A stretch of 64,000 nucleotides of DNA. It comes from Cohnella laeviribosi DSM 21336 (GTDB lineage Bacteria > Bacillota > Bacilli > Paenibacillales > Paenibacillaceae). Each line of letters opens with the position of its first letter. The stretch's first letter is position 1. The translations under genes and the position numbers were made by a program. Of this stretch, positions 19,896-59,894 are shown piece by piece. The DNA is taken from contig NZ_KB899822.1 in NCBI RefSeq assembly GCF_000378425.1, positions 1 to 64,000 on the forward strand. Direction: 5' to 3'. The notes below the pieces were generated by a model. That model searched no databases and was not told the DNA's origin. It saw only the letters and a list, made by a program, of their open reading frames with translations.

Positions 19896-20855
19896 CTATC
19901 CGTTCGCTTCCCGCTTCCTGCGGGCGATAAAGCCGATTTTCGACGTCATCCCAAGTTCGGAAAGCAGCTCTTTATACTCCCTGTTCACCCTAGCCAAGAA
20001 ACCGTTCAATGCCGCCTCCGCGCGCCCGTCGGTCCCCGGCCGGACGGGAAACGCCGGCTCCCCCATGCCGTCCTCCGCACGCGGCTGCGGCCGGTCGCGA
20101 AGCACCCAGTTCAGATGGTTCACCAAATGATAATCTTGGGAATAAAAAAAGTCGCCTTCCAGTCCCGCTTGATCCAGCAAAATCCGCAGGCTCCGCTCGC
20201 TGAAGTAAAACAGATGCGCGCTGCGGAAATAAAACGTCCGGTAATTCGGCAGATCGAACGCCGATACCAGAACGTCCCGCAAGTTCGGCACCTCGACGTA
20301 CAGGAGCCCGTCTTCCTTCGCGTAGTCTTTGAGCTGAAGCAAAAATTCCAGCGGATTGCCGACATGCTCCATCACCTGAAAGGCACAAACCGCATCGAAC
20401 GACCGTTTCGCAAGCGGCGTCTCGGCCAGGTAATCCGTATATACCGGACATCCGCACCGCTCCGAAGCGAACTTGGCCGCCTCCGGGTCGATTTCGACGC
20501 CGACCGCTTCTTTCACCTTATCCTTTATATGAAACAAAAAGGCCCCGGACGAACAGCCGACGTCCAGAACCGCCGCATCCCGGCGCAAATATCGTTCGAT
20601 TCGGGCGACCCTGTCCTGCTGGAATCCGACGGCGCTGTCGAACAGCCGCTCGGCGTCGGCCTGTCCGCGGACATCGGGCTTGTAGGCTTTCCGGTATTCG
20701 TTCCGATAGTACCGCTTCAGCTCAGCTTCGTCTTTCCGTTCTTCCAAAAAGCCCAGATCGCACTCCGGGCAGTGGAAAACGCGAAGCTTCTCCCCATTCC
20801 GCAGCCGGTCGGTCAACACCTTCGTGCGGTCTTGGCCGCATAACGGGCAGTTCAC
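19896..20855 (-). CDS. Class I SAM-dependent methyltransferase with N-terminal zinc-ribbon-like motif
   Basis: 319 residues from a GTG start at 20855 that overlaps the stop of the preceding gene (GTGA) and follows AAGGAGG. The N-terminus has CPLCG and CPEC pairs about 25 residues apart, a likely zinc knuckle as found in many sugar C- or O-methyltransferases. The SAM fold follows: VLDVGCSSGAFLFHIK (motif I), then FDAVCAFQVMEHVGNP. It lies in the nonulosonic-acid block, so a glycan is the likely substrate, but position and sugar are unknown. Confidence 0.85.
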   Translation of the reverse strand: MNCPLCGQDRTKVLTDRLRNGEKLRVFHCPECDLGFLEERKDEAELKRYYRNEYRKAYKPDVRGQADAERLFDSAVGFQQDRVARIERYLRRDAAVLDVGCSSGAFLFHIKDKVKEAVGVEIDPEAAKFASERCGCPVYTDYLAETPLAKRSFDAVCAFQVMEHVGNPLEFLLQLKDYAKEDGLLYVEVPNLRDVLVSAFDLPNYRTFYFRSAHLFYFSERSLRILLDQAGLEGDFFYSQDYHLVNHLNWVLRDRPQPRAEDGMGEPAFPVRPGTDGRAEAALNGFLARVNREYKELLSELGMTSKIGFIARRKREANG

Positions 20856-21577
20856 CGGTTTTCCGCCTCCTTCCTTTTTCGCAGGCGAAGCAAAAATGCC
20901 GCCCATTCGAGTTCGATCGGATCGTCGATATTCACAACCTCCCGGTCGATGAGCAGCGGCAGCGTGCGGTCCGTAATCACGTTCCGCTTGTTCAGGAGGC
21001 AATCTCTCGTCAAGGCGTAGCACACCCCGTTGCGCCAATACTTGGCGTCCAGCGCCTGCCTGTAGACCACCCCGGCGCCCTCCGGCTCGTAGAACGACAG
21101 CTTCGAGCCGTTCAGGCCGAAGATTTTCCGGGGATGGAACTTGGACGGCACGGCGCTCACCGTCACGACCGAATCCGCCCCGGACCGGATCAAAAGCTCC
21201 GTCGCCCGCTCCACATCCTCGGCCAGCCGCAGCGGGCTCGTCGGCTCGACCAGCAAAATGACGTCGAACGTCCGGCCGTAATGCTTCTCGGCTTCCGCAA
21301 GCGCGTGGACGGCCGTCTCGACGGCGCCCGCCGTATCCGTGCTCAATTCGGCCGGACGGACGAACGGAGCGTCAAGGCCGTAACGCCTTCCTTCCGCGAT
21401 ATACGCCGCCGAATCCGAGGAAAGGACCTTGGCGTCCAGCCACGGCAGCCGGCCCAAACACAATCCCGCATGGCCGATCAGCGACACCCCGGCCAGCCGG
21501 CGCATGTTTTTGCCTGGGATGCCCTTGCTTCCGCTGCGCGCCGGAACGATGGCAATGACGCTGCGATTCGAATACAT
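20852..21577 (-). CDS. neuA: Acylneuraminate (CMP-nonulosonate) cytidylyltransferase
   Basis: 241 residues. It couples CTP to a nine-carbon acid sugar, the step that makes the glycosyl donor. The signature IAIVPARSGSKGIPGKNMR sits at the N-terminus, with SSDS, the LLVEPTSPLR segment near residue 108 and DDPIELEWA near the C-terminus. Length matches the short bacterial NeuA/LegF/PseF type. It is translationally coupled to the methyltransferase and follows the Gfo/Idh gene by 18 bp. Whether the sugar is sialic, legionaminic or another acid cannot be told from this enzyme. Confidence 0.9.
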   Translation of the reverse strand: MYSNRSVIAIVPARSGSKGIPGKNMRRLAGVSLIGHAGLCLGRLPWLDAKVLSSDSAAYIAEGRRYGLDAPFVRPAELSTDTAGAVETAVHALAEAEKHYGRTFDVILLVEPTSPLRLAEDVERATELLIRSGADSVVTVSAVPSKFHPRKIFGLNGSKLSFYEPEGAGVVYRQALDAKYWRNGVCYALTRDCLLNKRNVITDRTLPLLIDREVVNIDDPIELEWAAFLLRLRKRKEAENR

Positions 21578-21595: not shown

Positions 21596-22603
21596 TTAGG
21601 GGTCCAGCGTTACGGCCCGGTCGGATATGGAGCTTTGCCGGCACGCCTCGACGACCCGCAGGGCGTTCAATCCGTCCCGAAGCGTGCACAGAGGCTCGCA
21701 GCCGCCGCCGACCACGTCGAGAAAATGCTCCGCAAGCCGGAGAAACATCTCGTTCCGTTCGTGACCGAATCGAATCTCCTGCCAATCCCGCCCCGCTTCC
21801 AGGCCGATCTTGACGGCGTCCGGCTCGAAGCTCCACACCAGGCTTCCTTTTTCCCCGACGATCCGGATCGTTCTTTCATGAGGCCGTCCGTACAGGTCCA
21901 GATGAAGCCGCGCCCGAAAGCTCCCATCGTACGACGCCAGAATGTCCACATGATCGTCCGTTTCGATTTCAAGCGGGCTTAAGCGCTCGACTTGGGCGTA
22001 AATCTTCGACGGCATCCCGAACAGCCAGATCATCAGATCGATAAAATGGCTTTCGTCGAGCAGCGCCCCGCCGCCCAATTCCTTGCTCGCCATAAAGAAA
22101 TCCTGATACCGTTCCCACGGATGCCAGTCCGCCAGATGCGCGCTCATGACAAAGTCGGCGTACAAGGGCTTGCCGATCGTGCCGTCCCGCAGCTTGCCCC
22201 GCAGGAAGCGGATGGAAGGCCACCATCTGTACGTATAGCCGACCAGGACGGCGGGCCGCGCCGGATCACCCGCTCCTTCGGCCGCGAGCCGCTCCGCTTC
22301 CGCGAAGGACGGGGCGACCGGCTTCTCCAGCAGCACCGGCTTGCCCCGTTTCAGGCATTCGGCGCACTGGGACACATGAAAGGCCGGGGGAGAAGCGACG
22401 ACCACGGCGTCGAAATCGTCCTGGCGCCATGCCTCGTCCAGCGAGCCGAACGAATGAACGAGCTCCGCGCTTTTCGCCGCTTCTTCCAGCCGGTCCTTGC
22501 GGGGGTCCATGCCGGAGACGCGGCAGCCCAGAAAAGCGAAATTGCGCAAATGCCGCTTGCCGGCGGAACCGGTTCCGGCAACCAAAATATGCTTTGCAGT
22601 CAT
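21596..22603 (-). CDS. Gfo/Idh/MocA-family sugar oxidoreductase
   Basis: 335 residues from the ATG at 22603, which follows a GAGGTG ribosome site. The N-terminal Rossmann fold reads ILVAGTGSAGKRHLRNFAFLG; DAVVVASPPAFHV and the catalytic-lysine segment KPVLLEKPVAPSF follow near residues 70-100. The C-terminal domain contains GGGALLDESHFIDLMIWLFG. Such enzymes oxidise or reduce a sugar carbon with NAD(P). Homologues named PtmF-like occur in nonulosonic-acid gene sets. It begins 5 bp after the TPP-enzyme stop. Confidence 0.88.
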   Translation of the reverse strand: MTAKHILVAGTGSAGKRHLRNFAFLGCRVSGMDPRKDRLEEAAKSAELVHSFGSLDEAWRQDDFDAVVVASPPAFHVSQCAECLKRGKPVLLEKPVAPSFAEAERLAAEGAGDPARPAVLVGYTYRWWPSIRFLRGKLRDGTIGKPLYADFVMSAHLADWHPWERYQDFFMASKELGGGALLDESHFIDLMIWLFGMPSKIYAQVERLSPLEIETDDHVDILASYDGSFRARLHLDLYGRPHERTIRIVGEKGSLVWSFEPDAVKIGLEAGRDWQEIRFGHERNEMFLRLAEHFLDVVGGGCEPLCTLRDGLNALRVVEACRQSSISDRAVTLDP

Positions 22604-22608
22604 GCTTT

Positions 22609-24204
22609 TCACCTCAAATTCGCAGTCATCGACGTATAGCCGGTCTTGTCGAACGCCATTTCCATAAACAACGGCCCCGGAAAGTCCAGGTCCGCCCGTT
22701 CCAGCGCCCTCCGGAATTCCCGGTAACTTCGCACCCGGACCGCCTCCCATCCGATCGCTTTCATCGGCCGGTACCAGCTGGAACCGGCGATTTCGACCGG
22801 CTTGCCGCTGCCCGCCCTGGACGCCGCCGCCCGCCGGATCGAGCCGTAGCCGCCGTCGGACATATAGAGCACGAAGAGCTTGAGCCGAAGCTCGGCGGCC
22901 AGCCTCAGCTCGGCCCAATAGGGCCGGATGCCCCCGTCGCCGGCCAGGCAGACGATCGCGGCCTCCGGATGGGAGACGGCAAGGCCGATGGCGGTCGGAA
23001 CCGAAGTGCCCATGAACCTTCCGTTGCCGCTCCCGCAATATTCGGAAGGCTGCCGCGCCTTCCACACCGTTTCGGCGATCGTGCAGAACAGCCCCGTATC
23101 CGATACGAGAATCGTCTCCTTCCCGTGCAGCCGCTCCTGCACATCCCTCAGCGCCAAGGCCGGCAGCCACGCTTCCCGGAACAGCTCGCGGTCCACCTCC
23201 CGCCAATAGCGGCGCAGAAGCTCCTCGCCCCAGGATTTGGCGGACAGGGCCCGGGCAAGCTCTTCCCCGGCGGCTTCCATATCGAACGGATGCGCGACCG
23301 CCGACGCCTGAAACCCCTCGCTTAATTCATGCCCGGCATTGTCCACAATCACGATCTCCGCCTCCGCGCGGATCGGGCGGACGACCTCCGTATTTCTAAG
23401 CCCGATGCCGACGATCAGATCCGCTTCCCGTAAAATGTTCCGCTCCGGCGACAGCTTCCCCGCTTCGCCGGTCACCAGCCCGCCGAAGAAAGCGCTGCGC
23501 TCGTCGATGCACCCTTTGGCCGCGGCCGTTGCCAGCACGGGCACGCCGAGCCGGTCCCAACGGATCGAGCCGAGCCGCCGGGCCGCCATCGAGCCGAGCA
23601 CGACGGCCGGCTTGCGCGAGCGCTCGACCGCCTCGAGAATCCGCTCGAACGCCCGGCCGCCGTCCTCCCGGTGCGGCAACCCGGACTCGCCGTCCGGATG
23701 GGTCCGGATTTGGGGCTCGCGTTCCGGTTCGTCGGAAATGTCCAGATGGACCGGTCCCGGCGCCTCTTGGACGGCCAGCTCGGCCAGAAGGCCGACGCTG
23801 CGAAGCTCCCGGTCCAGCCGGGCGTACCCCTTCGCCGCCGGACCGCACAGCGCCGCGTGATCGGCCCGCTTGTGCATGTAATAGGCCGGAGCCGCCGAGG
23901 AATACGATTCGCTGACGGTCAGCGCCGGCCTCCCCTCGTACCGGTTCGAGAGGATGCCCGGAATGAAGTTGGCCAGCCCCGGCCCCTTGATCCCGATCGC
24001 GGCCGCCCGCAGCCGGCCGTCCCGGCAGCAGGCGCCGGCCATCAATGCCGCCGCCGCTTCGTGGGCGACCGGATAGAACGGCACGCCCGAATCCTCCAGG
24101 CAGGCGATCAGATCATAGCTGATCCCGCTTCCGGTGATGCCGAACGCATGCCTGACGCCCGACCGGATAAGCTCCCCGGCGAGCCGGCGCGCGAGGCCGC
24201 TCAT
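22609..24204 (-). CDS. Thiamine-pyrophosphate-dependent enzyme of the acetolactate synthase/decarboxylase family
   Basis: 531 residues with the three-domain order of this superfamily: N-terminal Pyr domain with catalytic Glu in VAHEAAAALMAG (about residue 49), central Rossmann-like domain, and C-terminal PP domain with the cofactor motif AGDGGIRPYWAELRLAAEL followed by SDGGYGS in place of the usual NN. Start at 24204 is an ATGA overlap with the preceding gene. Substrate is unknown. Placed between a D-2-hydroxyacid dehydrogenase and a sugar oxidoreductase, it might make an acyl or alpha-keto group used to decorate the glycan; that is inference. Confidence 0.8.
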   Translation of the reverse strand: MSGLARRLAGELIRSGVRHAFGITGSGISYDLIACLEDSGVPFYPVAHEAAAALMAGACCRDGRLRAAAIGIKGPGLANFIPGILSNRYEGRPALTVSESYSSAAPAYYMHKRADHAALCGPAAKGYARLDRELRSVGLLAELAVQEAPGPVHLDISDEPEREPQIRTHPDGESGLPHREDGGRAFERILEAVERSRKPAVVLGSMAARRLGSIRWDRLGVPVLATAAAKGCIDERSAFFGGLVTGEAGKLSPERNILREADLIVGIGLRNTEVVRPIRAEAEIVIVDNAGHELSEGFQASAVAHPFDMEAAGEELARALSAKSWGEELLRRYWREVDRELFREAWLPALALRDVQERLHGKETILVSDTGLFCTIAETVWKARQPSEYCGSGNGRFMGTSVPTAIGLAVSHPEAAIVCLAGDGGIRPYWAELRLAAELRLKLFVLYMSDGGYGSIRRAAASRAGSGKPVEIAGSSWYRPMKAIGWEAVRVRSYREFRRALERADLDFPGPLFMEMAFDKTGYTSMTANLR

Positions 24205-25148
24205 GTCGCGCTCCCTCCGTAATGCTCGAGAATGCGCCCGCAGGCGAACGCGACCGCACGGTCGACCGCCTCCGGGCAGTAGCCGCCGATGTGCGGGGTA
24301 ATGATCACCCGGTCCGATTGGCGGGCGTACTGCCACAGCCCGCTGCGGCGGACGTCCGGTTCGTCCGCCAGCACGTCGAGGCCGGCGGCGGCGATTCTAC
24401 CGCTTCGAAGCGCGTGAAGCAGCGCCTCTTCGTCGATCACCTCGCCGCGGGACGTGTTGACCAGAACGGCGCCCGGTTTCATTTTCCCGATGTTGTCCGC
24501 CCCCAGAAGGCCCTTCGTTTCCTCCGTCACGTGCACGTGGACGCTGACAAAATCCGAAACGGCCAGCAGCCGGTCCAGATCGGCGCGCTCGGCCCACGGC
24601 GGAAAGTCGCCCGCATAGGGATCGTAGCCGACCACCTTCATGCCGAACGCGTCCGCGTATTTCGCCATCCATGTCCCGATGCGGCCCATGCCGATGATGC
24701 CGAGCGTTTTGCCGCGCAGCATGACGCCCGGAAACCGCTGACGGTCCCAGCTTCCCCGCATCGTATCGGCGACCGCGCCCCTCAGCCGTCTTGCGCACGC
24801 CATCAGCAGCAGCCAGGAATGCTCCGCCGCCGGCGTCAGCCCGCGCAGAAATTCGGTCTGCCCCTGCAGGGTAAGAAGCGGAATGCCCCGCCGCCGCAGC
24901 GCCTCGCGGTCGATATGATTCGCCCCGGTGGTCGCCGTCGCGACCAGTTCGAGCCGCTTCGCGTTCATAATCGTCTCGGCGGTCAGCCTGACTTTCATCG
25001 AGGCGTCCAAAAACACGGCGCACCGCTCGATTTCGGGAAGCAGCGACTCCGCCCGGTCCTCGGCGGCGCGAATGTCGAACCGCCCTTTCAGCGCCTCCTC
25101 CACGATGCGAACGCTATGGGACGGCCCGCTGTAAACCAATCGTTTCAA
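24201..25148 (-). CDS. D-isomer-specific 2-hydroxyacid dehydrogenase
   Basis: 315 residues. The NAD-binding core has LGIIGMGRIGTWMAKYADAF near residue 150 and the family signature KMKPGAVLVNTSRGEVIDEEAL near 225. Catalytic Arg is in NTSRGEVID, Glu in the DEPD loop (LADEPD) and His in ITPHIGGY. It interconverts a 2-keto acid and a D-2-hydroxy acid with NAD(H). It overlaps the TPP-enzyme gene by 4 bp, which implies that the two act in one short pathway. Glycerate-, lactate- or phosphoglycerate-like substrates are all possible. Confidence 0.87.
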   Translation of the reverse strand: MKRLVYSGPSHSVRIVEEALKGRFDIRAAEDRAESLLPEIERCAVFLDASMKVRLTAETIMNAKRLELVATATTGANHIDREALRRRGIPLLTLQGQTEFLRGLTPAAEHSWLLLMACARRLRGAVADTMRGSWDRQRFPGVMLRGKTLGIIGMGRIGTWMAKYADAFGMKVVGYDPYAGDFPPWAERADLDRLLAVSDFVSVHVHVTEETKGLLGADNIGKMKPGAVLVNTSRGEVIDEEALLHALRSGRIAAAGLDVLADEPDVRRSGLWQYARQSDRVIITPHIGGYCPEAVDRAVAFACGRILEHYGGSAT

Positions 25149-25187: not shown

Positions 25188-26498
25188 TTACTTGGCGCCA
25201 AGCCTGTAGACATGCTGATCCTTTAGCCCCGCTGCGGCGTTGCGGCAATCGAATACGGCCCGCGAATGCCGGACGACAAAGCCGAAATCGTACGACCGGT
25301 GAGCCGTCAAAATCACGACGCAGTCGTATCCGGACAGCCGTTCTTCGGTAAGTTCCGGGATCGAATGCCGCTTGATGCCGCTTTCGTCCGTAAACGATTC
25401 GATATAAAAATCGTGATAGTCCACCGCCGCGCCCCTGTCCGCCAGCAGGCCGAAAATCTCGAGGTTGGGCGATTCGCGCAGGTCGTCCTGATCCGGCTTG
25501 TAGGCCATGCCGAGCAGCAGCAACCGCGAGCCGGCCAGGCACTTGCCGTAATCGTTCAGAATTTCCATCAGCCGATGAACGACGTAACGGGGCATCGACT
25601 GGTTCGACTCCTGCGCCAATTCGATGAATTTGCTGTAAAAATGCGCGCGCTTGGCCCTCCACGCCAAAAACAGGGGATCGAGCGGAATGCAGTGCCCGCC
25701 GATGCCGGGGCCCGGGTAGAACGGCATGAACCCGAACGGTTTGGACGATGCGGCGGCAATGACTTCCCAGATGTCGATGCCCAGCTCTTCGCTAAGCCGC
25801 GCCATCTCGTTGACGAATCCGATGTTGACGCTCCGGAACGTATTTTCGAGCAGTTTCGTCATCTCCGCCGCCTTCGGGCTCGAAACCGTCACGACGCGGT
25901 CCGCGACCGTTTCGTACAGCGCTTTTCCGGCCGCAAGGCAGGCGTCCGTCGTGCCGCCGACCACCTTCGGGGTATTGCGGATGCCGTACTTGCGGTTGCC
26001 GGGATCGATCCGCTCGGGAGAATAGCACAGATAATAGTCCTGCCCGGGGACATAGCCCGCCTGGCGGAATTCCTTCTCCAGGCATTCCTCCGTCGTCCCG
26101 GGATACGTGGTGCTTTCGAGCACGATCAGCATTTGCGGATGCAAGCGGGGCTTGATCGTCTCCACGCTCGCCTGAATGTAGCTTAAATCCGGCTGCTGAT
26201 TGTGCTTGATCGGTGTCGGCACGCAGATGACGACGGCGTCCGCCAGCGCAAGGGCGTCGGGCTCGCTGGCAGGCCGAAGCTTTCCCGACGCCACGGCTTC
26301 CTTCACGCGCTGCGGCGGCACGTCGCGGATATACGACTTGCCCTGCCGGAGAAGCTCCGTCTTTTCCGCGGAAACATCGATCCCGTATACCGTAAACCCC
26401 GCTTCCGCAAATTCGAGAGCCAGAGGCAGCCCGACGTAACCCAGGCCGAGAACGGCAACGGAAGCGGACCTGCCGCGAATTTTATCCAGTACGTCCAT
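25188..26498 (-). CDS. UDP-N-acetylhexosamine 6-dehydrogenase (WbpA/WecC-like)
   Basis: 436 residues. Three domains: NAD-binding VAVLGLGYVGLPLALEFAEAG at residues 13-33, the central helix, and the UDP-binding C-terminal domain. The catalytic Cys is in GPGIGGHCIPLDP near residue 268. SPERIDPGN and KVVGG fit the WbpA/UDP-GlcNAc dehydrogenase branch more than UDP-glucose dehydrogenases. It oxidises the sugar C6 to a uronic acid in two NAD-dependent steps. Its presence suggests the glycan also contains an aminouronic acid. It lies 15 bp after the NeuC-like gene. Confidence 0.88.
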   Translation of the reverse strand: MDVLDKIRGRSASVAVLGLGYVGLPLALEFAEAGFTVYGIDVSAEKTELLRQGKSYIRDVPPQRVKEAVASGKLRPASEPDALALADAVVICVPTPIKHNQQPDLSYIQASVETIKPRLHPQMLIVLESTTYPGTTEECLEKEFRQAGYVPGQDYYLCYSPERIDPGNRKYGIRNTPKVVGGTTDACLAAGKALYETVADRVVTVSSPKAAEMTKLLENTFRSVNIGFVNEMARLSEELGIDIWEVIAAASSKPFGFMPFYPGPGIGGHCIPLDPLFLAWRAKRAHFYSKFIELAQESNQSMPRYVVHRLMEILNDYGKCLAGSRLLLLGMAYKPDQDDLRESPNLEIFGLLADRGAAVDYHDFYIESFTDESGIKRHSIPELTEERLSGYDCVVILTAHRSYDFGFVVRHSRAVFDCRNAAAGLKDQHVYRLGAK

Positions 26499-26513: not shown

Positions 26514-27665
26514 TCAGGTTCCTTTGACATAGGCCAGCTTTTTCTGGCTGTAGGGCTTAAGCGTCAAGATCTGATCCACGATCCGCGCCGACACGCCGGG
26601 TTTGCCGTACAGCTCGCTGGCCGGATATTTTCCGTGCGCAAGCTGCGCCCGTATCGCTTCCGCAATCGCCTGCCTGACCGGTTCCACCCGCCGGACCGCT
26701 TCGGACCACTCCCTCCCGTCCTGCCGGGAGCCGACCAGCACGACCGGCGTCCCGACGAAGGAAGCCTCGCGGACGAAGCTGGAGGAATTGCCGACGCAGC
26801 AGGCCGCCTGCCGCAGCAGCGGAATATAATCCTCCGGCTCGAAGTTTTTGAAGGCGCGCAAGGGGATCTCGCGGTTGAATTCGCGGAAACGGCGGATCGC
26901 GCCGGAGACGGAATCGGAGCCCGCGTCGATGTTGGGCCACAGCAGCACGATTTGCGCGCCCGTCTCGCGAAGAGCCAGCAGCAGCTGCTCCATTTGGGCT
27001 TCGGCGTCGGCGAATTCGGTGGTCACGGGGTGGAACAGCGCCAGCAGATACGGCTTGCCGAAATCGATGGGCGCCCCGACGCCCGCGTCCGCGATCCGTT
27101 CGGCCGGAATATCCGCCGCCGCACTTGCGACCACATCGGCGCTCGGACAGCCGAACGGAAACACCGTCTTCGGGTCTTCTCCCATCCTGACGATGTAGCG
27201 TCCCGAACGCTTCGTAGCCGGAAAATGGTAATGGGACAGCTTCGTAATCGCATGCCGCGTCGCTTCGTCGATCGAACCGGTCACTTCTCCGCCTTGCAGA
27301 TGAATCAGGCAAATATTCTGGTACGCCGCGGCGATAGCGGCCGCCAAAGCCTCGTAGCGGTCGCCGATCAGCAGCACGAAATCGGGAGCCAACTTGCGAA
27401 ACGCGCTGGAAAACTCGATGATGCCGAGGCCGATCGACTTCGTCATGGTCGCGGGCAGCGAGCCGTCGATTTCCAGATACACCTCTTCGTCAACCGGAAA
27501 GCCGTCCTCCAGCACGACCTGCTTCGCTTTGCCGAACCGGTCGAGAAGCATCGTTCCCGCGCAGACGACCTGCATTTCGATGTCCGGGCGCGACCGCATT
27601 TGGGCCATGACCGGCTTCAGCCGGCCGTAGTTGGCGCGGTCGACCAGGACGACGGCGATTTTCAC
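26514..27665 (-). CDS. neuC: UDP-N-acetylglucosamine 2-epimerase, hydrolysing (NeuC/LegG-like)
   Basis: 383 residues of GT-B fold. The N-terminal part contains LLIGDRYEALAAAIAAAYQN and LQGGEVTGSIDEATRHAI, hallmarks of NeuC/LegG, with the catalytic acidic residues in GDRYE and GEVTGSID. It removes UDP while inverting C2, giving ManNAc or its 2,4-diamino relative, the substrate for the NeuB gene that overlaps its start by 4 bp. No LegB/LegC dehydratase-aminotransferase pair is in the window, which favours a ManNAc-type route unless those genes are elsewhere. Confidence 0.88.
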   Translation of the reverse strand: MKIAVVLVDRANYGRLKPVMAQMRSRPDIEMQVVCAGTMLLDRFGKAKQVVLEDGFPVDEEVYLEIDGSLPATMTKSIGLGIIEFSSAFRKLAPDFVLLIGDRYEALAAAIAAAYQNICLIHLQGGEVTGSIDEATRHAITKLSHYHFPATKRSGRYIVRMGEDPKTVFPFGCPSADVVASAAADIPAERIADAGVGAPIDFGKPYLLALFHPVTTEFADAEAQMEQLLLALRETGAQIVLLWPNIDAGSDSVSGAIRRFREFNREIPLRAFKNFEPEDYIPLLRQAACCVGNSSSFVREASFVGTPVVLVGSRQDGREWSEAVRRVEPVRQAIAEAIRAQLAHGKYPASELYGKPGVSARIVDQILTLKPYSQKKLAYVKGT

Positions 27666-28717
27666 CGCGCGCTCCCCCCCTCATCCGCTTCGAAATCGGA
27701 TTCGCGGAACGGATGGTTGGCCGCTACGCCATGCCGCAGCGTTTTCCCGATCAGGTCGCCCAGGCGGCTGGGCGGAATGCCGCCTCCCGGCTTTTTGGCG
27801 GCGATCATCCCCTCCTGCAGCACGGTGCCTGCCGGAAGGTCCTCGCGCGCCACGAGGCTGCGGTAAAAAATCGCCCGCATGTCCCGGTACCGGTAGGCGG
27901 CCGCTTCCTTGTCGATGGGGTGAGCCAGCATCTTCTCCATGAACGAGACGCCGTCCGTCAGCAGTTTGAGCTGCTCCATCGTGAGGGAAGCCGGTACATC
28001 CGGACCGAAGGCCTGCTTGGAAAACGTGACGTGCACCTCGATCATCGACGCGCCCATCAGCGCGGCGGCAAGACCCGGGTAAATTTCGCCCGAATGATCC
28101 GACAGGCCGACGGGGCACCCGTACCTGTCCCTGTAAAACGGCAGCAAATTCAGGCCCACCTTTTCCGGCGGACACGGGTATTCGGACGTGCATTGAAAGA
28201 CGAGATATTCGCTTCCCGCCGCCTGAAGCCATCCGACGCACGCATCCAATTCCTCCAGCGTGCACAGACCGGTCGACACCAGAATCGGCTTGCCGGTCCG
28301 GGTCATCCGGTCGATCAGCGGCTTGTTCGCGATTTCGCCCGAGGCCACTTTCCAGAACGGAACGTCCAGCTCTTCAAGCCAGTCGACGGCAAGCGGGGAA
28401 AACGGCGAACTGAAGAAGATCAGGCCCCTTTGCTCCGCGTGCTCCTTGAGCCCTTTCCACTGCTCCTTCGTAAACTCCATCCGCTTCCAGTAGTCGTAGC
28501 GGGTTGCGTCCTGGCGGCTGAATTGGACTCTCCAGGGCTCCTGCGGCGTGCTTTCCTCTTCGGCGATATGCGTCTGGAACTTGACGGCGTCTGCGCCGGC
28601 ATCCGCCGCGGCGTCGATCAAGGCGTGCGCCGTGCCGAGGCTTCCGTCGTGCGCCTGCGCGATTTCGGCTGCGACGAGACATTTTTTCTCCGTGAAAAAG
28701 GACTGTAAGGACGCCAT
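27662..28717 (-). CDS. neuB: N-acetylneuraminate/nonulosonate synthase
   Basis: 351 residues from the ATG at 28717 with a GGGAGG ribosome site. It condenses phosphoenolpyruvate with a six-carbon amino sugar to a nine-carbon acid. The NeuB barrel shows AAEIAQAHDGSLGTAHALID, AVKFQTH, FQCTSEYPCP and GLSDHSGEIYPGLAA (metal and substrate residues). Residues 285-345 are a SAF domain (REDLPAGTVLQEGMIAAKKP) that closes the active site of the dimer. Overlap with neuC and the following neuA gene make this a complete activation path to a CMP-sugar. Confidence 0.92.
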   Translation of the reverse strand: MASLQSFFTEKKCLVAAEIAQAHDGSLGTAHALIDAAADAGADAVKFQTHIAEEESTPQEPWRVQFSRQDATRYDYWKRMEFTKEQWKGLKEHAEQRGLIFFSSPFSPLAVDWLEELDVPFWKVASGEIANKPLIDRMTRTGKPILVSTGLCTLEELDACVGWLQAAGSEYLVFQCTSEYPCPPEKVGLNLLPFYRDRYGCPVGLSDHSGEIYPGLAAALMGASMIEVHVTFSKQAFGPDVPASLTMEQLKLLTDGVSFMEKMLAHPIDKEAAAYRYRDMRAIFYRSLVAREDLPAGTVLQEGMIAAKKPGGGIPPSRLGDLIGKTLRHGVAANHPFRESDFEADEGGSAR

Positions 28718-28730
28718 GTCGTTTCCTCCC

Positions 28731-30650
28731 TTACCGTTCGTACCCGCGGGAGCGAATGCGGCCGGCCGCGATCCGGATGTTGCGGGCAAGGCTTTGGCAA
28801 AGCGCGTTCAGACCATCGAGCAGCTCGGCTTGAGCTTGCATCGCCTGCCGGAACTTCCCGGGAGAATGAATGGGCCCGAGTTCGCCCAGCTTGTGAAATC
28901 CGGCAAACAGAACCGGCTGAAAATGGGTCAAGTGCAGATCGGGATGGAGAAAATCCGAAAGAACGCCGCGGGCGTTATCGGCGGCAAACCGGCGCAGCTC
29001 GGCGAAGCGGTCCGATTCCGGTTCCGGAACGCTGCCGCGCATGAGCCGCTCGCATTCGCTTTGCCTTGCGGCGGTCCGCCGCTCAAGCGCCCGGTAGATC
29101 GCGGCGTACTTCTCGAGTTCGGCCAACAGGCGCTTGACCCGCCTTTGGCGGGCCGGGATGTCGAGCGTTTGCCGGCTGTCGCGGATGACCGCATGCAGCT
29201 TGTGCGGCAGCGGCTTTGGGCAATGCGTCCGGATGACGTCCGCCAGCGGCGCGCACACCGTCCCCTTGATGGCGGCGCCCGCTTCCGTCGTGTTGATGAC
29301 GGTGACCTGCGGATGTTGCTCGATCATTTGGACGAGCAGCAGCTTGAAGTGATTCCACTTCGCGTTGGACCGGATGATCCGGCCGTCGTTGCTCTTCACG
29401 TAAACCGCGGGCTGCGCTTTCAGCATGGCCACGGTGTCCTGCTGGTCCGCTTCCGCGTATACGGACTGCCTGCTGTGGGTCGATCCGTCCGGGCCGTAAG
29501 CGAGATCCTGCCCGACCAGCACGATCGGATTCGCTCCCATATACAGGGCGGCCTCAAAGGCGAAGTGCGCCGAGCTCTTGCCGCCGAACAGCGCGCTTCC
29601 GTCGCCTACCGTCCGGTTGAACAGCAGGCTGTCGGAATCCCGGCTGCGGAAAACGGGAATTTTCGGCCCCGGGAACGACCGGAAAATCCGCGGGTCGATG
29701 ACCGCAAGTCCCAGCAGGGCCAGCTCTTCCGGATACCGCTTGTTTTCGAAATGCCGGCGGTAGCTCTTCTCCGTGCGTTCCAGGACGCATACCGCATCCG
29801 GCACGATCCCGTTTTTCATCAGCGGGGCAATCGCCGATTCGCTGCACAGGATCAGCCCTTTTCCAACCGCCTCCTTCAGCTCCGGAATCGCTTGGTCCAA
29901 AGAAGGGCCGTTCGCGATGACAAAAGCCGGAACGTTGTCAAACCGGTTTTTCAAACAGCTCAGGTACGGGTTTTCCAGCACTTCGTCCAGATTGTCGGCC
30001 ATATGGTGAAAGCCCAGGAGCGTATCGGAGGGGTCGTTGCCGAATTTTTTGGTTTGCAGCGCCAAAAGCTCGAAAAGCTGCGTGTGCAGACGGATGTACG
30101 TCTGTTTGAACAACCGGGCCCCCGGCGCGAACGCGACGGACGGAGACGTCAGATAAAACAGGTCGGGCTGCGAAATGAATCGGGCAAATTCCTTCGAAAG
30201 CTCCGGAAGCGGACCGGCGAAAAACGCGAATTTGCCCGTTTCGAACAAGGGCGCCAGATCGAATTCCCGCAGCATGGCGATAAACAAATGGAGATCCGGC
30301 TCGAACACCAGAACCTGCGTTTCCGGCTGTTTGCGTCTCATCATTTCGAGCAGGGGATAACCGAAGCCGCACCCGTATACAAACAGCGTTCCGATCTCCC
30401 GAAACGGGATTTGCCCGCACCACGTCTCCGCCTGGGCGACGGGATCGGTACTGGTGATCCGAACCGCCCTTCCTTCCTCGATATACCGGCATACCGGATA
30501 ACCGTCCTTCGGCCGAACGATCTCGATCCGCCGCTGCGTTTCCTTCGGGTCCGTGCGCAGAATCCGCTGCTTTAACGGTTCGTGAAGATATTGCAGGTTG
30601 CGGGCAAAACGGTCGTTCCGCCCGGAACCGCCGGACCGCGTCCCCGCCAT
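28731..30650 (-). CDS. Maf/DUF115 (MptE-like) glycosyltransferase, second copy
   Basis: 639 residues from the ATG at 30650. The protein is a motility-accessory-factor homologue: an N-terminal Rossmann-like part with GTLFVYGCGFGYPLLEMMRR, then the central DUF115 domain with VPAFVIANGPSLDQAIPELK, LILCSESAI and ADPIVLVGQDLAYG-like sequence (here NPIVLVGQDLAYGPDGSTH), followed by a helical C-terminus. Maf proteins transfer nonulosonic acids onto flagellin Ser/Thr in Gram-positive and Campylobacterota species. It sits 2 bp after a close paralogue and 13 bp before neuB, so the CMP-sugar made next door is the likely donor. Confidence 0.9.
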   Translation of the reverse strand: MAGTRSGGSGRNDRFARNLQYLHEPLKQRILRTDPKETQRRIEIVRPKDGYPVCRYIEEGRAVRITSTDPVAQAETWCGQIPFREIGTLFVYGCGFGYPLLEMMRRKQPETQVLVFEPDLHLFIAMLREFDLAPLFETGKFAFFAGPLPELSKEFARFISQPDLFYLTSPSVAFAPGARLFKQTYIRLHTQLFELLALQTKKFGNDPSDTLLGFHHMADNLDEVLENPYLSCLKNRFDNVPAFVIANGPSLDQAIPELKEAVGKGLILCSESAIAPLMKNGIVPDAVCVLERTEKSYRRHFENKRYPEELALLGLAVIDPRIFRSFPGPKIPVFRSRDSDSLLFNRTVGDGSALFGGKSSAHFAFEAALYMGANPIVLVGQDLAYGPDGSTHSRQSVYAEADQQDTVAMLKAQPAVYVKSNDGRIIRSNAKWNHFKLLLVQMIEQHPQVTVINTTEAGAAIKGTVCAPLADVIRTHCPKPLPHKLHAVIRDSRQTLDIPARQRRVKRLLAELEKYAAIYRALERRTAARQSECERLMRGSVPEPESDRFAELRRFAADNARGVLSDFLHPDLHLTHFQPVLFAGFHKLGELGPIHSPGKFRQAMQAQAELLDGLNALCQSLARNIRIAAGRIRSRGYER

Positions 30651-30652
30651 GT

Positions 30653-32557
30653 TCACGAGCCTCCGGACGAGAGCTTGCCGATCGCGATCCCGATATTCCG
30701 GACAAGGCTTTGGCAAACGACGGTCAAATGATCGAACAATTCGTGATGAACCAGAAACAGCTTGCTCCATTTCCAGGGAGCGCCGGGAGGACCGAGCACG
30801 TTCATTTTGTAAAATCCGGCCATGATGACTTGCTGGAAATACAGAATATGCATGTGCGGAGACAGAAATCGGATGAAGTCCCGGAGATTGCTTTCGTACG
30901 CCTCGCGCAGCTCCCGCTCGATGCCGGCATCCGCCGTTTCGCACCGGTCCAGCAATCGTTCGCATGCGCGCTTTCTTCTCTCGGTCCACAACCCCAGCGC
31001 ATGATAAATCGCCCTATATTTTTCGAGCTCGGCCCGCAATCGTTCGCGTTTGCGGTTTCTGTCCTTCATATCCAGCGCTTTCCGGTTGTCGCTGATCACC
31101 TCGTGAAGCCGCCGCGGCAGCGGACTTGCGCAATGCGTTTCGATCACGCTCGCCAGCTTGCCGCGTCTCGTCCCCTTGATGGCGGCGCCCGCTTCCGTCG
31201 TATTGATCACGGTCGTCTGCGGGTTCCGGGCGATCATCTCCTCAAACATGATCTTGAACTGGTGCCAGATCAGGTTGGAACGGATCAGGCGGCCGTCATT
31301 GCTTTCCACGTAAACCGCGGGCAGCGATTGCAGCTTCTGCACCACGTCCTTCTGCGCCGCCTCGGCGTATACCGACTGCTTGCTGTGCGTCGATCCGTCC
31401 GGTCCGTATGCGAGATCCTGCCCCACCAGCACGATCGGATCGGCCCCCATGTACAGGGCGGCTTCAAAGGCGAAATGCGCCGAGCTTTTGCCGCCGAACA
31501 GCGCGCTTCCGTCGCCGACGATTTGGTTGAAAAACGTGCTGTTGGACTCGGAATCGCGAAAGACGGGAATTTTGGGCCCCGCAAAAGCCGGGAAAATTCG
31601 CGGATCGATGACGGCCAGCCCAATCAGGGCCAGCTCCTCCGGATACCGCTTGTTGTCGAAATGCCGTCGGAAGCTTCGTTCGGAGCGCTCCGATACGAAC
31701 ACCGCGTCCGGCACGATCTGATTTTTGACGAGCGGGGTAATCGCCGATTCGCTGCACAGAATCAACCCTTTGCCCTTCGCCTTTCCCAACTCCGCTATAG
31801 CCTTGTCCAACGACGGGCCGTTGGCGACGATGAAGGCGGGAACGTTTTTGAATTGGTCCTTGATACAGCTTAAATACGGGTTTTTCAGCACTTCGTCCAG
31901 ATTGTCGACGATATGGTGGAATCCCAGCAGGGAATCGTAATGGTCGTTTCCGAGTTTCTCCAGCTGCAGCATAAAGAACTCGAACACGCGCTCATGGATA
32001 TGGAGGCATTCCTTCTTAAACGGCCTGGAGCCCGGAGCGAAGGCGATGGACGGAGCCGTGCAGCCGTGGAACACATCCGTCGACAACAGCCGCTCGAACT
32101 CCTGGGCAAAGTCTTCGTAGCTCCCGACGAAAAAGGCGAACTTCTGCGTGCGGAACAACGGCTCCAGGTCGAAATGCCGCAGCATCGCGATGAACAGATA
32201 AATATCGGGCTCGAATAGGAGCACGACGGTTTCCGGCGGTTTCCGCTTTGCGATTTCCAGGAGAGGATACCCGAATCCGCAGCCGTATACGAACAGCGCG
32301 CCGATCTCTTCGAGCGGAATCTGATCGCCCCACGCCTCCGCCTGGCCGACCGGGTCGGTGCTGTTGATGCGGACGGTTGTTCCCGCCCGCTTATACCGGC
32401 AAACGGGATGCCCTTCCCGCGTACGGACAATCTCGACCCGCCGCCGGACTTCCTCGGGCTCGATCTGCCGGATACGCCGCTGCAACGGCTCGTGCAGAAA
32501 AGCTAAATTTTTCGAGTACAAGTCGTCCTGTTCTTTCTCGTCAGCCCGGTTGGCCAT
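30653..32557 (-). CDS. Maf/DUF115 (MptE-like) glycosyltransferase, first copy
   Basis: About 634 residues; the ATG at 32557 and a GTG one codon upstream are both possible behind an AAGGAGG site. It aligns end to end by eye with the neighbouring copy: GALFVYGCGFGYPLLEIAKR, VPAFIVANGPSLDKAIAELG, LALIGLAVIDPRIFP, NPIVLVGQDLAYG-type motif and STHSKQSVYAEA. The two therefore come from tandem duplication followed by divergence. The C-terminus (FIRFLSPHMHILYFQQVIMAGF) is all helical. The gene overlaps the small helical-protein gene upstream by about 17 bp. Confidence 0.9.
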   Translation of the reverse strand: MANRADEKEQDDLYSKNLAFLHEPLQRRIRQIEPEEVRRRVEIVRTREGHPVCRYKRAGTTVRINSTDPVGQAEAWGDQIPLEEIGALFVYGCGFGYPLLEIAKRKPPETVVLLFEPDIYLFIAMLRHFDLEPLFRTQKFAFFVGSYEDFAQEFERLLSTDVFHGCTAPSIAFAPGSRPFKKECLHIHERVFEFFMLQLEKLGNDHYDSLLGFHHIVDNLDEVLKNPYLSCIKDQFKNVPAFIVANGPSLDKAIAELGKAKGKGLILCSESAITPLVKNQIVPDAVFVSERSERSFRRHFDNKRYPEELALIGLAVIDPRIFPAFAGPKIPVFRDSESNSTFFNQIVGDGSALFGGKSSAHFAFEAALYMGADPIVLVGQDLAYGPDGSTHSKQSVYAEAAQKDVVQKLQSLPAVYVESNDGRLIRSNLIWHQFKIMFEEMIARNPQTTVINTTEAGAAIKGTRRGKLASVIETHCASPLPRRLHEVISDNRKALDMKDRNRKRERLRAELEKYRAIYHALGLWTERRKRACERLLDRCETADAGIERELREAYESNLRDFIRFLSPHMHILYFQQVIMAGFYKMNVLGPPGAPWKWSKLFLVHHELFDHLTVVCQSLVRNIGIAIGKLSSGGS

Positions 32558-32864
32558 CACCCGTCGTTACAGCCTCCTTTCTCCATTCGCGGACAAGCGG
32601 GATCAGCTTTCCTTCCAACTCATCGCCGATCGCGATAATATCTTGGTTCCGGATATGTTGACTCAGCTCTTCCAGACAGGAGACAAGCGCCGCATTCCAT
32701 GTCTCCGGGTTGCCGGACAACCGGTCCGCCATGCGCTCCAATTGTTCCAGCGCTTGAGTAAACCGCTCGTAGCCGGCGTAATCGTTATCCCGCTTCCATT
32801 CCAGGACGCAGGAAACCAGCAGCCCCTCCACGTTCTCCAGCGTCTTCGCGAGGCTAAGCTCCAT
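32541..32864 (-). CDS. Small helical protein of the Maf neighbourhood
   Basis: 107 residues, predicted entirely alpha-helical. The pattern IRNQDIIAIGDELEGKLIPLVREW near the C-terminus (first 20: IRNQDIIAIGDELEGKLIPL) resembles small proteins often seen next to DUF115 genes in Firmicutes, with a D-x-L-x-x-L-x-P-x-x-x-x-W motif. Such proteins might be chaperones or adaptors for the glycosyltransferase or for flagellin, comparable in size to FliS/FliT, but I cannot assign it. It overlaps both flanking genes (11 and 17-20 bp), so it is translated with them. Confidence 0.7.
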   Translation of the reverse strand: MELSLAKTLENVEGLLVSCVLEWKRDNDYAGYERFTQALEQLERMADRLSGNPETWNAALVSCLEELSQHIRNQDIIAIGDELEGKLIPLVREWRKEAVTTGDGQPG

Positions 32865-33978: not shown

Positions 33979-34344
33979 TTACGGATTTTCCGTTGCGCTG
34001 CTTGCGGTGAACAATTCTCCGGCGAAAATGCGCTCAGTTGCAGTGCCGCCCACCAATGTAATCTCCGGAACCATATTCGGGTTCGAATAGCGGACCTCGA
34101 CCGCAAACTGGGCTACCGTAGACGTCACCGTAAATCCGGTTGTCAGGGCGTTGTTCGCGAGAAGGGCGAAAGCTGTTTGCGTAAGCGCGGTTTTGAAACC
34201 GGAGAGCGGAACCTCCCAAATGATGATGTTTGCCGTGTTGACGCCGAGATCGTCGTTCATCGTCGTTACCGTCACGCTGACGCTCGTCGTCCCGTCCAGC
34301 GAAGCTCTTGGGATCGCTCCGGTCTTGTAAACAAATACTGCCAT
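33979..34344 (-). CDS. Hypothetical Thr/Val-rich beta protein in the glycan island
   Basis: 121 residues, not recognised. It is rich in Thr, Val, Ala and Asn with alternating hydrophobic positions (SVSVTVTTMNDDLGVNTANI, AQFAVEVRYSNPNMVPEITL), as expected for an all-beta fold; there is no Cys, no signal peptide and almost no charged cluster. It has its own terminator (33932-33956) and lies 107 bp after the glycosyltransferase gene. A small surface-layer or spore-coat component acting as glycan acceptor is a possibility drawn only from composition and position. Confidence 0.65.
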   Translation of the reverse strand: MAVFVYKTGAIPRASLDGTTSVSVTVTTMNDDLGVNTANIIIWEVPLSGFKTALTQTAFALLANNALTTGFTVTSTVAQFAVEVRYSNPNMVPEITLVGGTATERIFAGELFTASSATENP

Positions 34345-58916: not shown

Positions 58917-59894
58917 ATGTCGAAGGACAAAGCCGATGCCAGTGTAAAACTTTCCTTGCCCGCCGACGTTTCCTCGCGGGCCCAATTCAGCGAAGCCGTC
59001 CGCCTGTTTCTGATGGACTGCCGGTTCCGAAATCTTTCTCCGATGACCATCGAAGGATATTATACGTATTTACGGGCCTTGCAACGCGATCTCGACCAAT
59101 GGGGGCTTTCCCTGAATACCCTCACCCCAAAAGATCTCACTGTACGGATGGTCAACGAAATGCTGGAACAGGGATTCAAACCGAATACGATCAACGGAAA
59201 AATTCGGACTTGCCAACAATTTTTCAAATTCCTCCATCTCGAAGGCATCTTGGACACCAACCTTGCGGAAAGTTTGAAACCCATTAAAAATGAGCGCAAA
59301 ATGGTCCATACTTTCACCGAAGAACAAGTCCAGGCCATCATGCGCCAACCGGACCGAAAAACGTTTACCGGATTGCGCGATTATACCATGATGCTGGTCT
59401 TGCTGGATACGGGCATGCGGGTCAATGAATTAACGCAAATGAAAATTTCCCATATCGACTTTGAGGAGAAAACCATCCACATTCCCATGGGCAAAGGCCG
59501 GAAGTTCCGCGTCGTCCCCATTCAGCAAACGTGTGTAAACGCCCTAAAGGAATATTTGGAGGAACGGGGGGAACACGAGTTTGATGACCTCTGGGTCACC
59601 GTCTTCCATCAACCCTTTCGACGGTATGGTATCATCCAAATGATCAGCGGCCACTGCCAAAAGGCCGGGATCAAAGGGGTGCAAGGTTCCGCCCATACGT
59701 TCCGCCACACTTTTGCGAAATTCTTTTTAATGAACGGCGGCGATATCTTCACCCTGCAATATCTGCTGGGGCATACGACGTTGGAAATGACCCGTTACTA
59801 CGTGGAACTGTTCAGCAAAGACCTTCACAAACAGCACGAAAAATGCAGTCCGGTCGAACATCTTGCCGAAGATTTGAAAGAAGAGGTGCAATAA
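58917..59894 (+). CDS. Tyrosine recombinase/integrase, first of a tandem pair
   Basis: 325 residues. An N-terminal SAM-like core-binding domain (about 25-115) and a C-terminal catalytic domain. Catalytic set is complete: Arg168 in TGMRVNEL, Lys near 193-195 in MGKGRKFR, His260 and Arg263 in HTFRHTFAKF, His286 in GHTTLEM and Tyr295 in TRYYVELF. Ribosome site GGGAGG lies inside a small hairpin (AACTCCC/GGGAGGTT) that could limit translation. One base separates it from the next recombinase gene. Adjacent tRNA remnant indicates an integrase role rather than housekeeping XerC/D. Confidence 0.92.
   Translation: MSKDKADASVKLSLPADVSSRAQFSEAVRLFLMDCRFRNLSPMTIEGYYTYLRALQRDLDQWGLSLNTLTPKDLTVRMVNEMLEQGFKPNTINGKIRTCQQFFKFLHLEGILDTNLAESLKPIKNERKMVHTFTEEQVQAIMRQPDRKTFTGLRDYTMMLVLLDTGMRVNELTQMKISHIDFEEKTIHIPMGKGRKFRVVPIQQTCVNALKEYLEERGEHEFDDLWVTVFHQPFRRYGIIQMISGHCQKAGIKGVQGSAHTFRHTFAKFFLMNGGDIFTLQYLLGHTTLEMTRYYVELFSKDLHKQHEKCSPVEHLAEDLKEEVQ

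Follow-up and report, generated by a model that had tools for sequence, protein, structure and literature searches.

A thiamine-diphosphate-dependent lyase and a D-2-hydroxyacid dehydrogenase encoded in a conserved nonulosonic acid gene cassette of Cohnella laeviribosi

Results

An overlapping gene pair in a nonulosonic acid operon

We analysed a stretch of 64,000 nucleotides from Cohnella laeviribosi DSM 21336 (contig NZ_KB899822.1, positions 1 to 64,000; hereafter the window), in which the genes for a lyase dependent on thiamine diphosphate (ThDP, also thiamine pyrophosphate, TPP) and for a D-2-hydroxyacid dehydrogenase lie together in an operon for a nonulosonic acid (NulO), a sialic-acid-like sugar. 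Both open reading frames (ORFs) are intact. As reported in a preliminary description of this DNA, they share a 4-bp overlap (ATGA, 24201–24204), and the pair sits between a nucleotide-sugar dehydrogenase gene (39-bp gap) and the genes for a Gfo/Idh-type oxidoreductase (5-bp gap) and NeuA. The pair, its partners and its neighbours are as follows (aa, amino acids; CMP, cytidine monophosphate; UDP-GlcNAc, uridine diphosphate N-acetylglucosamine; SAM, S-adenosylmethionine).

22609..24204, minus strand: ThDP (TPP)-dependent lyase, acetolactate-synthase-like, 531 aa (Pfam TPP_enzyme_N/M/C above cut-off)
24201..25148, minus strand: D-2-hydroxyacid dehydrogenase, 315 aa, TTG start, NAD-type (Pfam 2-Hacid_dh and 2-Hacid_dh_C above cut-off)
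24201..24204, minus strand: ATGA stop/start overlap of dehydrogenase and lyase (same junction in 9/9 clade genomes)
21596..22603, minus strand: Gfo/Idh/MocA-type sugar oxidoreductase, core partner (Pfam; closest solved chain 3q2k)
20852..21577, minus strand: NeuA-type CMP-NulO synthetase, core partner (Pfam CTP_transf_3; closest solved chain CMP-NeuAc synthetase 1eyr)
26514..27665, minus strand: NeuC, hydrolysing UDP-GlcNAc 2-epimerase, core partner (NCBIfam equivalog passed; closest solved chain GNE 4zht)
27662..28720, minus strand: NeuB-type NulO synthase with SAF domain, divergent subfamily, core partner (Pfam NeuB and SAF)
25188..26498, minus strand: nucleotide-sugar dehydrogenase, accessory, outside the conserved core (NDP-sugDHase subfamily, 411.6 bits)
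19896..20858, minus strand: SAM methyltransferase, 7-bp overlap with neuA, frequent neighbour (Pfam Methyltransf_23)
28731–30989 and 30653–32560, minus strand: two tandem MptE-like/Maf-type genes (Pfam MptE-like)

The operon reads, along the minus strand, neuB, neuC, nucleotide-sugar dehydrogenase, D-2-hydroxyacid dehydrogenase, ThDP lyase, Gfo/Idh, neuA and methyltransferase, with successive gaps of -4, 15, 39, -4, 5, 18 and -7 bp. It carries the three marks of a NulO pathway, namely a NeuC-type 2-epimerase, a NeuB-type synthase that condenses phosphoenolpyruvate, and a CMP-NulO synthetase.

The pair is part of a cassette conserved in distant bacteria

Judged by profile scores, the window lyase is a member of a small, sharply separated clade of TPP enzymes. 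A profile (A1) was built from four lyases, those of the window's genome (G000), a genome of the same family (G319) and two metagenome-assembled genomes, one deltaproteobacterial (G394, locus L008) and one gammaproteobacterial (G395, locus L009). It scored its own rows G000, G394 and G395 at 899–920 bits and the members outside the profile (G1102, G1576, G1581 and G1582) at 421–444 bits, while the best non-member among the matches listed reached 188.3 bits. With the window protein alone as query, G319 gave 654 bits and G002, a genome of the same genus, gave 424 and 239 bits in two pieces. These nine genomes are those in which the clade was found.

In all nine, the dehydrogenase gene lies directly upstream of the lyase gene with the ATGA overlap, and because this junction is identical throughout, the window's own included, the overlap is beyond chance. 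Such conservation suggests that the two proteins form a complex or are made in equal dosage. The surrounding gene set is conserved as well: neuC lies within the locus in 9/9 genomes (in G1581 as a match of just 49 residues where the contig ends) and neuB in 8/9, the two genes adjoining in six of the eight loci that have both. Gfo/Idh and neuA were present in 6/6 genomes that could be judged, directly downstream in G000, G002, G319, G394 and G395; the three remaining clade contigs end too early to judge. Five genomes have every one of the six genes in frame. Compared pairwise, their core proteins share 33 to 74% identity, and the identity profiles of these six proteins correlate at 0.67–0.98; the ten genome pairs are non-independent, so that this correlation is taken only as consistent with co-inheritance.

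More distant TPP enzymes (E values from 1e-45 to 1e-60) gave 17 loci as an outgroup, and among the 13 fetched, with contexts of 8 to 17.5 kb, no relative of a partner gene (cluster proteins other than the TPP enzyme) was matched. The pair is thus not found mostly outside glycan clusters, the outcome named beforehand as contrary to the preliminary description: all nine relatives found adjoin NulO genes. Since this holds for every relative and the outgroup loci lack the partners, we conclude with high confidence that a NulO pathway of six core enzymes includes the pair as dedicated, jointly inherited members. Both enzymes come from large metabolic families, as would be expected if they served general metabolism (acetoin or glyoxylate, for example) and lay in a glycan operon by chance; with pair, overlap and NulO neighbours the same in every clade genome, with outgroup loci devoid of partner genes, and with neither protein coming near the cut-off of any equivalog model that it matches, such an accident is very improbable.

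Several observations weigh against the six-enzyme pathway. In L008 and L009, neuC sits behind neuA and not beside neuB, and in G1582 the Gfo/Idh and neuA genes are split off about 16 kb downstream, with 51% and 45% identity to those of the window. Six of the nine members fall in two close groups (G000 with G002; G1102 with G1576, G1581 and G1582), so the independent cases number about five. Furthermore, the lyase gene of G002 (L010:8406-10110) reads in three frames, while seven neighbours are in one piece each and a frame change affects one of the two Maf genes as well; errors of assembly are the likely cause, a broken or decaying copy being the other possibility.

The cassette is rare, occurring in 3/394 genomes of the window's family. 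Clade-level matches per search, centre genome included, were 2/37, 3/394, 1/369, 2/395, 1/398, 1/124, 1/129 and 4/125 (1976 genomes counted in total, with overlaps between searches; the larger searches scored the best 3 or 4 first-look candidates per genome). A single-query pattern scan of the species genomes, which detects close relatives only, returned two loci. No relative was found in viral contigs, and plasmids gave no match at E 1e-30.

Accessory genes and the sugar-shortening alternative

The nucleotide-sugar dehydrogenase was considered as a core member and ruled out, as it is gone from this place in G002, L008, L009, L037, L054 and L056. It is present in G319, and in L009 a 34% relative lies at 1248–2396, 5.7 kb before the neuB match. 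Relatives of the methyltransferase occur in L010, L011, L008, L054 and L056, and none was matched in L009.

This distribution bears on the idea that the pair shortens the end of a sugar chain, in which a terminal CH2OH group would be oxidised to a carboxylate, the D-2-hydroxyacid dehydrogenase would oxidise the adjacent carbon to yield an alpha-keto acid and the lyase would decarboxylate it. The gene order in the window and in G319 (nucleotide-sugar dehydrogenase, D-2-hydroxyacid dehydrogenase, lyase) matches three successive steps of such a route, and the relative in L009 places the first enzyme in that wider locus. Against this, the nucleotide-sugar dehydrogenase is missing from its place even in the same-genus genome, and no relative was matched in the whole of L008 or across the 37 kb read from G1582; we consider chain shortening unlikely because that enzyme falls outside the core.

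The lyase resembles carboligating acetolactate synthases

Eight clade members were aligned, the G002 lyase being left out because of its frame changes. The catalytic residues are intact: Glu49, HKRxDH (111–116) and SDG (449–451) of the lyase are invariant, and Arg234, Glu263, His286 and Asp176 of the dehydrogenase are conserved in 8/8. We take the catalytic roles of Glu49 and of the dehydrogenase residues from their families, Arg/Glu/His presumably being the catalytic triad of D-2-hydroxyacid dehydrogenases. Together with the catalytic and NAD domains (Pfam, above cut-offs), these residues provide the features of D-isomer-specific 2-hydroxyacid dehydrogenases.

The preliminary description had singled out the lyase motif SDGGYGS, stating that relatives carry Asn-Asn after the GDG motif. 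The motif is there, but Asp occupies the second position in 12/12 outgroup acetolactate-synthase-like TPP enzymes (read in 12 of the 13 fetched loci; L045 was left out because another frame was called there), so this feature is ordinary for the branch and was discarded as a peculiarity of the lyase. B. subtilis AlsS (4rjj) reads 'ND' at the aligned motif. Asn-Asn does occur in two of three paralogues from the same genome, the third reading 'DN'.

Among solved structures, the lyase has its nearest relatives in carboligating acetolactate synthases (134–170 bits by profile, with which Foldseek on the structural model agrees). With the catabolic acetolactate synthases of K. pneumoniae (ALS) and B. 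subtilis (AlsS), which are among these relatives, the lyase shares the catalytic Glu and the Asp of the AlsS metal-binding motif. It differs from them in its low identity (19–25% in Foldseek alignments), in its placement within a NulO operon, and in carrying HKR where acetolactate synthases have HQS, a replacement present in 8/8 aligned clade members that fits an anionic partner. The lyase also missed the AlsS equivalog cut-offs (NF006378, 101.4 against 510 bits; TIGR02418, 87.9 against 551.1 bits).

An AlphaFold model of medium quality (three sequences; mean predicted local distance difference test score, pLDDT, 67.4, and below 50 at residues 109–112, part of the HKR patch) has a predicted acetolactate-synthase-like fold. 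VIA-align 2 placed pyruvate oxidase 3eya, 9ev6 and acetolactate synthase 1ozh level (Z 27.6–27.8, root mean square deviation 5.7–6.2, 469–477 residues aligned), and the fold therefore gives no choice of reaction.

NeuC points to a probable N-acetylmannosamine precursor

NeuC passes the UDP-GlcNAc 2-epimerase equivalog (TIGR03568, 345.6 bits; cut-off 235.9) and resembles GNE (232 bits) more closely than it does the diacetylbacillosamine enzyme (184 bits), so that N-acetylmannosamine (ManNAc) is the likely first product of the predicted pathway. NeuB exceeds the Pfam cut-offs (NeuB, 229.7 bits; SAF, 46.4 bits) and misses that of the Neu5Ac synthase equivalog (297.9 against 399.65 bits). All seven aligned cassette NeuBs read KKP where SiaC (1xuu) has KRP; the deposited SiaC chain 4ipj, which we take to be a mutant, also reads KKP. 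The Arg of this motif (314) is presumably an N-acetyl-binding residue in SiaC, and an altered acceptor would then fit.

The neuA product matches Pfam CTP_transf_3 (45.8 bits; cut-off 22.6) and misses the PseF equivalog (90.2 against 205.7 bits). Orthologues of the Gfo/Idh protein share 52–65% identity with it in four other genomes and 77% in G002; its best solved match, 3q2k, we take to be WlbA, a 3-dehydrogenase of UDP-N-acetylglucosaminuronic acid (UDP-GlcNAcA).

Glycan context of the window

On the 5' side of neuB lie the two MptE/Maf-type genes, a glycosyltransferase gene and two genes of the guanosine diphosphate (GDP)-mannose dehydratase family, and 137 bp downstream of the methyltransferase gene there is a ManC-type gene. 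The second MptE-like gene, the one of the two that was scanned with NCBIfam, matches the PseD-like model NF050051 below cut-off. The tandem Maf/MptE-like genes (28731–32560) match each other's relatives, and G002 also has two. Towards the window end, a gene of the phage-integrase family is present at 58917–59894 (Pfam Phage_integrase).

The suspicion that the window cluster is the flagellar glycosylation island is undercut by a second NulO cluster on contig C10 of the same genome (Maf, short-chain dehydrogenase/reductase, and NeuC-, NeuB- and NeuA-like genes; L064:10834-18924 and L063), which is no more than about 7 kb away from the first of the two flagellin matches. Two Maf-type genes belong to the window cluster itself, and no Maf relative was matched in the L008, L009 or G1582 stretches, which suggests that the cassette is a module for sugar synthesis whose product goes to different transferases. 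Near the Maf-type genes, a 121-aa protein rich in Thr, Ser and Ala with no family match is encoded at 33979–34344 (minus strand) and might be a glycosylated protein. G319 also has small ORFs of similar size near its Maf gene (L012:2632-3024, with a CARDB match, and L012:3722-4132).

Discussion

Our analysis indicates that the cassette very probably helps to build a modified sialic-acid-like sugar. In the proposed scheme, NeuC, NeuB and NeuA would make and activate the NulO, and the Gfo/Idh protein, the D-2-hydroxyacid dehydrogenase and the ThDP lyase would modify it or its precursor. The Gfo/Idh enzyme may turn a sugar hydroxyl into a ketone; the lyase may decarboxylate an alpha-keto acid, either pyruvate or a longer hydroxylated one, and, in the manner of acetolactate synthases and of the YerE-like enzymes that branch sugars, add the resulting acyl anion to the ketone. 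The dehydrogenase could set the keto or hydroxy state, either of the alpha-keto-acid partner before joining or of the new branch afterwards. A carbon-branched or extended CMP-NulO would result; Maf-type transferases would receive it in this organism, and other polysaccharide machinery would do so elsewhere.

The chemistry that we tentatively favour is carboligation, in which a unit derived from an alpha-keto acid is joined to a keto-sugar made by the Gfo/Idh enzyme. In its favour are the kinship with acetolactate synthases, the basic HKR patch, the presence of Gfo/Idh as a partner, an HpcH/HpaI aldolase gene in some loci and the precedent of YerE and ErwE. To our knowledge, no pathway to a carbon-branched NulO has been described. 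A more specific version, in which Gfo/Idh oxidises the NulO or the ManNAc leading to it, the lyase adds a branch from an alpha-keto acid and the dehydrogenase completes a carbon-branched sialic acid, is possible but doubtful. That ThDP enzymes branch keto-sugars of cell-surface glycans is established for YerE and ErwE, and ErwE prefers hydroxylated alpha-keto acids as donors (available text of PMC12247030).

In 3/3 long-enough loci of the G1582 group, the aldolase gene stands two positions beyond the lyase gene. It was identified by family scan in L037 (L037:6429-7247), with relatives in L054/L055 and L057. A gene scanned in L054 (L054:18135-19511), which follows the pair in the G1582 group, encodes a 'surface carbohydrate biosynthesis protein' (TIGR04396). 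The aldolase and TIGR04396 genes suggest extra alpha-keto-acid chemistry in the G1582 lineage.

A number of points count against carboligation. No clade member has a known product or activity. D-2-hydroxyacid dehydrogenases normally need a carboxylate beside the carbonyl that they reduce, and a plain acetyl branch would not have one. The HpcH/HpaI aldolase was not found in the window, L008, L009 or L011. Profile A1 also scores an acetolactate synthase (1ozf, 166.6 bits) above JanthE (8rph, 108.1 bits), the sole YerE-like enzyme identified among the structure matches. YerE, ErwE and JanthE are, like the lyase, ThDP enzymes of the decarboxylase superfamily placed in cell-surface glycan synthesis (PMC12247030, available text); the context of the lyase is a NulO and not a cytidine diphosphate (CDP)-3,6-dideoxyhexose. 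On profile scores, the distance from JanthE speaks against membership of the YerE-like group and not against a similar reaction.

The alternative put forward in the preliminary description, that the pair supplies a keto or hydroxy acid as an unusual acyl substituent for an amino group of the NulO, is kept alive by the sfmABCDE genes of Shewanella oneidensis, which encode a NeuB-like protein, a TPP enzyme (SfmB), a reductase, a methyltransferase and an ATP-grasp protein. As far as the available text of PMC3765264 goes, SfmB is needed for a NulO-containing flagellin modification, in which a NulO of 274 Da bears an extra group of 236, 250 or 264 Da with predicted formulas C9H16O7, C10H18O7 and C11H20O7. 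By arithmetic, they correspond to the acyl group of a 3-deoxy-octonic acid carrying one, two or three methyls, isomers being possible and the linkage unproven. The NeuB-like enzyme, reductase, methyltransferase and ATP-grasp ligase of Shewanella could make such a 3-deoxy-octonic acyl. A D-2-hydroxyacid dehydrogenase could likewise make a 2-hydroxy acid of this kind, and a methyltransferase gene adjoins the window operon.

Among related loci, where family scans covered 29 flanking ORFs plus a few more, acyl-transfer types do appear. G1582 has an ATP-grasp_4 gene (L054:5082-6293) about 9 kb before the pair, in a neighbouring NulO cluster, together with an MBOAT gene, the ATP-grasp gene fitting N-acylation and counting in that measure against carboligation; L009 has Antibiotic_NAT and acyl carrier protein (ACP) synthase III genes about 7–9 kb after the lyase, and L008 has a hexapeptide-repeat fusion, an acyl-transfer type. 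The ATP-grasp_4 gene of G1582 stands directly before a second NeuB-like gene, an arrangement that recalls sfmE and sfmA of Shewanella.

Against N-acylation, no single acyl-transfer type recurs among the loci in the ORFs scanned, and among the window proteins scanned around the pair there was no N-acyltransferase, no ATP-grasp ligase and no match to an SfmE-like ATP-grasp gene. The cassette has one NeuB only and its NeuC fits UDP-GlcNAc rather than a diamino sugar, so a free amine for acylation is not evident. We therefore regard this alternative, too, as possible and rather doubtful.

The Shewanella set resembles the cassette in combining a NeuB-like protein and a TPP enzyme for a NulO-linked modification and in including a methyltransferase, the likeness resting on description and not on the SfmB sequence. 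It differs in having an enzyme of the 3-oxoacyl-ACP-reductase type in place of a D-2-hydroxyacid dehydrogenase, in its ATP-grasp gene, and in the lack of NeuC, Gfo/Idh and NeuA among its five operon genes. The statement that these enzyme types lie outside known NulO pathways accordingly holds in part: for the D-2-hydroxyacid dehydrogenase none was found in the open-access literature searched, but a TPP enzyme was already known in SfmB (PMC3765264, available text).

In the legionaminic acid clusters of Plesiomonas shigelloides, as given in the available text of PMC4481668, the oxidoreductase PtmF (326 aa, similar in size to the Gfo/Idh protein) is encoded next to the CMP-NulO synthetase, and NeuB and NeuC homologues are present. 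The Gfo/Idh gene of the window takes the same place as PtmF (Table 5 of that paper), a likeness by position and not by PtmF sequence. Those clusters have PtmE, PtmA, LegB, LegC and LegH; the window has the TPP enzyme and the D-2-hydroxyacid dehydrogenase.

The open-access literature searched holds no report of a D-2-hydroxyacid dehydrogenase and TPP enzyme pair in a NulO cluster, and in word searches of the main text available for papers on Geobacillus, Vibrionaceae and Leptospira NulOs the terms thiamine, acetolactate and hydroxyacid did not occur. What is new here is a variant of the NulO pathway and not a new kind of system.

The cassette is small enough to be expressed whole, and the structure of its product could be solved by mass spectrometry and nuclear magnetic resonance; ThDP enzymes acting on such sugars would interest biocatalysis. 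Sialic-acid-like sugars decorate bacterial flagella and surface polymers, and their variety has been read from a small set of known enzymes. The addition of a ThDP lyase and a D-2-hydroxyacid dehydrogenase to NeuA, NeuB and NeuC in distant bacteria points beyond the neuraminic, legionaminic and pseudaminic types.

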